DNA of 64,000 nucleotides, from the NCBI GenBank assembly GCA_021292105.1, contig CM037863.1, forward strand, positions 7,768,442 through 7,832,441. The letters run 5' to 3'. Under the pieces are notes generated by a model, which saw nothing but the letters and a program-made list of their open reading frames with translations, did not search any database and was not told the DNA's origin. Each line of letters begins with the position of its first letter. Within the stretch, counting starts at the first letter, position 1. Source of the DNA: Anadara kagoshimensis. Its lineage: Eukaryota; Mollusca; Bivalvia; Arcoida; Arcidae. The position numbers and the translations under genes are program-made. Shown piece after piece: positions 18,601 to 21,600 of the stretch.

Positions 18601-21600
18601 ATTGAAGAAATCTGAAATACTTACAACAAAGTATATAGAATCGCTCTAAGTAATAGTGAAAAAAATTGACTGGGGCGTAGAATTCCCATAGGCTACTCTC
18701 TCCTGCTCACTCTGAATTACATGGATATTTTCTGTTGCAATAACATTTTATTGAAGAAATTTTAAATAACTTACTGCAAAGTATATACTTGTTACACCGT
18801 ACATGATGATAAAGATGTTGGCATCTGTCAAACGACTGAAGCAGAAGTACAGACCAGCTACAAAATATAAATACATAGACAATAAGCACATAAACAGTCA
18901 AAGTAAACAGGTAATAATTATTTATAATCTAAATTATAAATATCACTTTTATATGAACCTACTTTCTCCCACTGACATTATTTTCAATGAAGTGTAAAAG
19001 TGTATAAAGAGTTCCACAATGGTGTATGGAATGTAATAATGCACAAAATCAACAAGTAGTCCCAGTTGCTAATCGTAATTAGATGTCTTTAGTTCAAGCT
19101 GGTATTCTCAAACATTTTAATCACCATTCACAAAAACAACACTTACATGATTGTAACTATAAGGGCTGATGTTTGTTTTTAATTGTTCATCAATGTATGA
19201 ACTGTTAAAGGAGGCAATGGGGCAAATAATCCATAAACCACTTTATCCATATCAAGTCAACTATTGGTACATGTATTATATGAGGTTTTATAAAACAGTT
19301 TTATGAAAACTGTCAGTGCTCCAAGCAGGTTTTGAAAACTGGTAGCCACATGGCTAATAATTCAAAAATGTCAGTGGCCATTTCAAGATTTTTGTCGCCA
19401 GGTAAAATTCTTGGTGGCCAAACCTTATAAATATTCTTTCTAATCACACCGCCCGTCGCTTCTACCGATTGAATGGTTTAGTGAGATCCTCAGATTTGTC
19501 CCACCACGGGAGGCAACTTTCGAGGCGGAGCAATGAGAAGACGATCAAACTTGATCATTTAGAGGAAGTAAAAGTTGTAACAAAACCCAAATCAAAAAGT
19601 AATTTTTGCCGTTTGGCTGCCATTAAAGCAAAATTAGATCACGGTCAGTTATGCATTTTAAACTATAGAGTCACCTGCTTTGGTTCAAGCGCTTTTAAGA
19701 TATTATTGATGGCGAGACTATTTCTCAGGTTGGGTGACGGGTCATGAACAAAATTTCCGGATTTGCCGATTTTTAGTAGCCAAACTCAAAAAAATTATTT
19801 GACATAATGGCGATCATCTGACAATTTGTAGTCGCAAAATCCGATTTTTGGTCGCAAATTTCGAGTATTTACTAGGCTACTTGGAGCACTGAACTGTGAA
19901 ACCAGACTTTCTTAAGAATACAAATGTTATTGTTTGCAATTCAACAATTAAACTTAGTTGTCATCAGAATGCATTTATTTGTCAAAAGAATGTTTGTAAA
20001 CATCTTCCAGATTACCACTGGTAATAACCAACAAAAGTGAGTTACTTCAAGCAAATATTCGATTTTTCATTATAAATTGCTCTTGTGAAAAAAAAAACAA
20101 AACAAAAACAAAGCAAAACAAAACCATCAATAAAATTCAAGACTTTTTTCACACATACCCCATAATAAAACACCAATGACTCCCAAACTTTGTACCTTGA
20201 AAATGTAAATGCTAATTTCCACTTACCTGGAAACATAAACACTAGCAGTTGTAAATCAAAGTAAAATGAACTCCAAGTAGTTGGCTGATGTTCTGATACA
20301 GAGGCAATGATTGGGATGTTGTTCTTGGCATAAGATGGATCCAATAGGGAGTAAAAACGTCCAGTCCATGGAGAAATTTCTGACAATTTGTTAAGGAGAC
20401 AAGTTATAACTGAATCAGGATGCAACTTTAAAAATTTTCCCCAAAGAAACCAAACTAGGAAATTCTTGACCATCTTCATGCTCCAAAAATGAAAAGCCAA
20501 TGACACGTCTACTCCACCAAAAGATTTTTCCTATGAAGTTTCATAAAGATTTGTTTTAATACTTTTCAAGTAAAGTGGCATACAAAATGTTGGTGAAAAA
20601 TGGAGTACACAAATGTCCCCCAGAAGAACCTAATTAAAAATCAAAATTAAACTTATATTTATATATTTTTCTTCTGATTCTGATAACAAATTTTTTTTCA
20701 ACTTTCATATTTGTCAAGTGTTATACATGTACTAGAAATCTTTCATAAGCTTTTAACTCAAGAACTACATGTGTGACAAAAGCTATTTGGTATGGTGTAC
20801 AGACAAGCTAAATACTATTTGTAAAAAAGGATACTTCCAGTTGCTGTGGCAACAGCAGCAGCAGCTGTACCAAGAATTCCGACCAACAGAATGATGCTTC
20901 TGAACAATAGAGAAAACTGTTCATAGGTCAGCTTAGACCTGACATAATCCACGAAGGCATGGATCTGACAAAGTCCAAATACACCAAGAGCCTGGAAAAT
21001 AACAAAGAAAATTGTTTTTATATACATGTACATGTATACAATACAAGGGTTACAAGTGAAAAATTCAATATTGGAATTTCATGCATATAAAACATTTATT
21101 ATATTTGGTCAATAAAACTGATGTTGTATTTATTTAGTATTTAAAATACTGAAAAAAGATCACTGATTAACTTTTGTTTGTTTTGTTAGGACAAAATAAT
21201 TGCAAAAGTTACTGATTGGGAACTCGTTTCTTTTCAACTATTGACAATATTACGGAAGTTAATAGTCATTAAATGGTCTTGTAAGAGAATTGCCAAAGTT
21301 AATATGTGCGAATAAAAGATGGTTTACAGTTAACAAATTTTCATCTTTTGAAAATTTCATAATTTTGACTTCCAGTCTGTAGCTATGACCTTTATTTTTG
21401 GGTTCAAAGGTTAATACTTGACCTGGAGCCATGACTATGAATTATTCTGGGGTCAAAGATTAACTAGAACAAGATATTCACTAGAAGCTAACACAGAAGA
21501 TGCACATGTTCTTAAAAGTTCAAAGGTCAATATTAGCATATGATAATTATTCTGAGGTCAAAGGTCAATACTTACTGCCATGTGTTCACTGGACTGTACT

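Follow-up and report, generated by a model that had tools for sequence, protein, structure and literature searches.

The window, a stretch of 64,000 nucleotides of the Anadara kagoshimensis genome, harbors at positions 19314-19891, within an intron of STT3A, an element of 578 bp bounded by exact inverted ends of 12 bp. This mini-element is very probably a non-autonomous hAT MITE, the interior of which was replaced by 18S rDNA before the element was amplified, with the rRNA piece carried along as a passenger. A hAT transposon of 4.4 kb, present in the same genome, supplied both of its arms from its ends.

The element and its setting

The element, its parts and the intron surrounding it comprise the following features (window coordinates, strand where assigned):

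18858-20226, minus strand: STT3A intron hosting the element, delimited by eye from GT..AG and protein continuity
19308-19313: left target-site duplication AACTGT, 6 bp in the window copy, 5 bp in the family
19314-19325, plus strand: left terminal inverted repeat CAGTGCTCCAAG, exact here and in 39 of 40 fetched copies
19314-19444: left arm, 131 bp, 3' end of the parent hAT transposon
19445-19583, plus strand: captured 18S rRNA piece, 139 bp, helix 44 and flanking linkers (RF01960)
19584-19891: right arm, 308 bp, 5' end of the parent hAT transposon
19584-19623, minus strand: what is left of the start of the transposase, the ATG with about 13-14 codons, consensus MAAKRQKSLFDLGF, then antisense 18S
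19880-19891, minus strand: right terminal inverted repeat CAGTGCTCCAAG, exact here and in 38 of 40 fetched copies
19892-19897: right target-site duplication AACTGT, 6 bp in the window copy

The host gene is STT3A, read from the minus strand to either side of the element. Solved STT3A chains are matched over residues 315-395 (E 1.5e-29) by one flanking exon and over residues 367-404 (E 9e-9) by the next one, across the element. A reading of the window made from sequence only (the sequence-only reading) had described an insert antisense to STT3A, exact 12-base inverted ends and a short flanking repeat. The orientation is as described, the rRNA piece being sense on the plus strand, and the STT3A pre-mRNA would carry its complement. 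The inverted ends were likewise found, CAGTGCTCCAAG occurring exactly at its two terminal positions and nowhere else in the window. With up to two mismatches allowed, three matches in the window are set against 2.96 in shuffled sequence, which is uninformative; the ends are convincing because of the genome-wide copies and not because of this looser count. The flanking repeat holds for the window copy and its 6-bp AACTGT, whereas the duplication typical of the family is 5 bp long (see below).

Within the 64-kb window, no convincing further copy of the element was detected (best E 0.04). Repeats of other kinds were noted at 56189-57348 (a 42-bp tandem unit in about 27.6 copies, 97% identical, with a frame open on both strands), at 28268-28407 (a perfect TGAT microsatellite of 35 copies) and at 44895-45147 (three copies of an 83-bp unit, 99% identical, a recent-looking tandem duplication).

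The captured 18S rRNA piece

Bases 19445-19583 correspond to the helix-44 region of 18S rRNA. An Rfam cmscan of positions 19100-20100 placed RF01960 (SSU_rRNA_eukarya) at 19450-19585 on the plus strand with 64.4 bits (gathering score 50, E 1.1e-16), in agreement with the 3'-end piece of 18S recognized in the sequence-only reading, and the Rfam alignment shows helix 44 closed inside the captured piece. A scan of the whole window with fast filters at the gathering threshold gave no match, the RF01960 piece being missed as well. Chance resemblance to rRNA is ruled out by the E value together with the genome copies; RF01960 was above its gathering score in all 15 loci scanned, which were chosen out of 98 genome loci. 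The family consensus of the piece restores GCTACTACC, CTCGGAT and GTCGTAAC, words of standard 18S that have decayed in the window copy; the oddities of this copy are thus later decay.

An origin of the 18S piece from the host is suggested by its resemblance to animal 18S. Three 18S patterns, two of them with 3 mismatches allowed, found no match in the genome assembly, from which the rDNA is seemingly missing, though the 18S pieces of the mini-element are present. Animal 18S, searched for comparison, gave no match in viral contigs (two patterns) or in phages, and, on a plasmid record, a single match covering 51 of the 139 bases (84%). A junction 20-mer had no match in viral contigs; its one match in a Singulisphaera bin aligns over 21 bp only and was taken as chance. 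A tRNA-like match was observed at L089:1746-1802, with 28 bits against an Rfam threshold of 29.

A family dispersed over the genome

Copies were sought in the genome assembly (1.115 Gb, 36 contigs). The element search returned 432 candidates, of which 40 were scored, yielding 41 matches in 40 places. Of these matches, 39 span positions 1-578 of the element, while one compound copy accounts for the remaining two; the identity of these scored copies is 95-98%, the window copy itself apart. The fetched copies are correspondingly uniform in length, 39 of the 40 best-scored measuring 575-586 bp, and the remaining one is a compound of 946 bp, arisen by tandem duplication (L046). Deviating structures were also noted at L114 (two left ends 237 bp apart), L094 (part of the insert repeated) and L056 (about 257 additional bases between left arm and insert). 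Pattern searches gave the extent of the family: a 41-base pattern from the 18S piece with up to 3 mismatches occurs at 297 genome places and a 43-base left-end pattern at 360, with no match for either reversed control. Part of the 297 places was inspected, and among the first 30 exact ones both arms were present in 29 and the left arm alone in one. The main support asked for in the sequence-only reading, several copies alike in their ends and in their rRNA piece, is thereby provided, and rRNA-like sequence is indeed scattered through the genome.

An exact 5-bp target-site duplication borders 33 of the 40 best-scored copies, while 0.04 would be expected when flanks are re-paired between copies. 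In two of the 33 the site is of low complexity, one being an A run and the other a CA run. With one mismatch tolerated the number rises to 36 of 40, and an 8-bp duplication is found in none of the 40. The seven copies without an exact 5-bp duplication are the window copy (6 bp) and six others. Two copies lacking it, L044 and L045, lie about 8 kb apart on contig 5 on opposite strands and have identical flanks, indicating an inverted duplication that took in the DNA around them, so that they represent one duplicated locus.

Each of the 39 simple copies deviates from the consensus by 1.0-3.1%. Changes common to several copies, which the sequence-only reading had named among its criteria of support, define nested subfamilies; seven copies, for instance, have an 8-bp insertion and form one subfamily. 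The GCGAG type (TTTAGCGAG) was considered as a separate rRNA family and rejected: at its 21 places in 20 fetched loci the left arm is present in 21 of 21 and the right arm in 19 of 21, making it a subfamily as well. Apart from small indels, both junctions, the inverted ends and the 5-bp duplications are common to the copies examined. Since arms and piece are the same and the subfamily changes are nested, the 18S piece was probably captured once and amplified afterwards.

The parental hAT transposon and its 18S-free relatives

To follow the family beyond its 18S-bearing members, the 45 exact left ends listed on contigs 1 and 2 and, up to 53.7 Mb, on contig 3 were used. An rRNA-pattern match lies within 450 bp in 24 of them; among the 21 that remain (20 in fetched loci, one being L048), the 18S piece is present, whole or cut, in 16, so that 40 of the 45 carry it. 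The five 18S-free left ends belong to three deletion derivatives (L103, L104 and L107, the first two with the same flanks), to L116, a truncated copy, and to L119, a full-length transposon.

The transposon at L119 (21-4418, 4,398 bp) shares its 12-bp ends with the mini-element and is flanked by the target duplication TGTAC. A hAT transposase can be read from its minus strand, with a match of the C-terminal piece to PF05699 at 27.4 bits (cutoff 21.4). Two further domains, DUF4371 and a C17orf113-type zinc finger, were matched below their cutoffs, and two other pieces of the transposase gave no domain match. Stops and frame changes break this reading up, and the L119 copy therefore looks decayed. 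For its C-terminal exon the next best match is 62% identical (86 matches, with 150 of 369 candidates scored), and no active helper transposase was found among these matches.

The arms of the mini-element are the two ends of this transposon: over the first 131 bp its consensus is 96% identical to L119, over the last about 309 bp 91%. In between, the interior of L119 (about 3.96 kb, nearly the whole transposase gene) has been swapped for the 139 bp of 18S. The beginning of the transposase is still legible in the right arm, according to translations of the mini-element consensus and of L119, and by eye L103 and L107 carry on in the same frame. The earlier proposal of a small non-autonomous DNA transposon is confirmed because the partner with the same ends has a hAT domain.

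Junctions and proposed origin

At the left junction, the mini-element passes from TTCTTTCTAAT into CACACC, whereas L119 continues with ATTACAAATT; at the right junction, GTAACAA meets AAAACCC with AA common to both. Shared sequence thus amounts to 2 bp (AA) at one junction, and none is clear at the other. Gap repair that was interrupted, or template switching, would be expected to leave just such a loss of the interior, spanned by a filler with little or no sequence in common at its junctions. In the proposed course of events, repair of an excision gap or a stalled replication fork would have had its copying of the parent break off near each end, and a small piece of rDNA would then have closed the break, with AA shared at one junction. 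The product would have retained the ends expected to bind transposase and could thus have been mobilized by transposase made elsewhere, giving rise to amplification through several subfamilies. A filler-free intermediate with the same breakpoints was not present among the five 18S-free left ends, and either gap repair or fork switching may have acted.

The filler may alternatively have come by way of RNA: the helix-44 hairpin, intact as a fragment of rRNA, would have been reverse transcribed and its cDNA patched into the excision gap. The boundaries of the piece lend this some appeal: it begins and ends in linkers and breaks no helix, the helix is closed within it in the Rfam alignment, and 0.45-0.58% of random fragments hold a whole helix and break none, a figure that concerns a single event noticed post hoc and was calculated with an approximate helix table for 16S of another species, E. 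coli. However, the junctions show by eye no poly-A or other mark of retroposition, and rDNA is abundant in genomes, so that DNA templates are easily come by. Capture through RNA is regarded as unlikely; if true, rRNA-templated repair could found transposon families, here one of about 300 places.

It is less likely still that the 18S piece entered a ready-made MITE later, by a separate insertion. Deletion derivatives without 18S do exist (L103, L104 and L107) and might be thought to represent such a precursor, but their breakpoints lie elsewhere (the left one near 113-124, the right one deeper in the transposase) and differ from those of the mini-element. Moreover, the 18S piece coincides at both of its ends with the gap in parent sequence, the two arms are directly joined in none of the five 18S-free left ends among the 45, and inspection by eye shows no duplication flanking the piece. 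Replacement of the interior by rDNA during formation of the element thus remains the preferred reading.

Constraint on the insert

The preferred reading treats the rRNA piece as a passenger, whereas it could also have been retained as a hairpin useful to the element, by way of nucleolar location, RNA structure or escape from silencing. The 18S version is indeed the commonest of the family in the sample of 45 exact left ends, but a founder effect yields equal dominance. In the 39 simple copies, conservation is no higher in the insert than in the arms, divergence over all sites being 2.8% in the insert, 1.5% in the left and 1.7% in the right arm. Non-CpG divergence is similar throughout (insert 0.0172, left arm 0.0141, right arm 0.0137), and the values at CpG sites are 0.083, 0.077 and 0.056, respectively. 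Mutations also did not spare the base pairs. In a pairing test, for which the 103 rows of the fetched loci that could be aligned gave 83 distinct strings, 80 of 126 distinct substitutions fell on paired sites, 79.4 being expected, and 22 kept the pair, compared to 25.0 expected. Neither divergence nor the pairing test shows any sign of constraint on the rRNA hairpin; the piece therefore looks like a passenger, and a useful hairpin is considered very improbable. That the element is an rRNA-derived SINE merely resembling a MITE can practically be dismissed. SINEs with 5S rRNA heads do exist (PMC3272025), but a SINE would have an internal pol III promoter head, a tail and duplications of variable length and would lack inverted ends, whereas the copies have inverted ends and fixed 5-bp duplications, and their ends recur on L119 with its hAT domain.

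Implications

In one genome, a relic parent, deletion derivatives and a far commoner 18S derivative occur together, and the origin of the MITE interior can thus be read directly. About 300 places, at least one of them intronic, contain 139 bp that rRNA filters or depletion probes could mistake for 18S. The sequence-only reading had foreseen confusion of rRNA-based work, a concern that is partly right: read filters could be misled, but the two primers of a pair should not both match, because the piece lacks GTA before CACACC and GG after GTAACAA, which belong to the standard 18S and V9 primer sites.

Classification and known systems

The element is a hAT5-type MITE, or multicopy Pack-TIR, with rDNA cargo. 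Its assignment to hAT is based on the terminal inverted repeats shared with the hAT-transposase element L119 (PF05699), though the reading of the latter is broken. As expected of a MITE, it is short, lacks a full transposase, occurs in many copies of uniform length and has the ends of a larger element, and as in a Pack-TIR, an identifiable host-type sequence (RF01960) lies inside an element with terminal inverted repeats. The usual hAT target duplication is 8 bp, which differs from the 5 bp seen in 33 of 40 copies and in L119. The CAGTG-type ends of the mini-element resemble those of hAT5 elements. hAT groups with 5- and 6-bp duplications are recognized, and families with 5-bp duplications are denoted hAT5 (Kapitonov and Jurka 2007, as cited in PMC12730594). 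The likeness to hAT5 consists of the hAT dimerization domain in the partner L119 and the 5-bp duplications, by the length of which the element fits this group. The mini-element differs from hAT5 elements in being without a transposase and in bearing rDNA.

In the open-access literature, at the level of titles and beginnings of abstracts, no earlier report of 18S within a hAT MITE was found, and the words "rRNA" and "ribosomal" are absent from the main texts of PMC8277862 and PMC3260210, which describe the closest relatives. Animal Pack-TIRs comprise 370 cases, mostly single copy; four multicopy ones are given from reference genomes, three from frogs and one from alligator, with three copies in the frog case described (PMC8277862). 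The present element resembles them in having hAT ends around a copied fragment, in becoming multicopy by later transposition and in its AA overlap, a 2-bp AA overlap being described at a junction of the Pack-TIR Ssk-FB4 (PMC8277862). It differs in its rDNA cargo and in its presence at hundreds of places. In maize, Ds2 and Ds-l4 are hAT derivatives with the interior replaced by unrelated filler DNA (PMC3260210), whereas the present case concerns an animal and a single filler, found in many copies and identified as 18S. The 5S rRNA-derived SINEs (PMC3272025) are likewise short mobile elements that spread rRNA sequence; they are, however, retroposons with a 5S head, while the element of A. kagoshimensis is a DNA transposon derivative with an 18S passenger.
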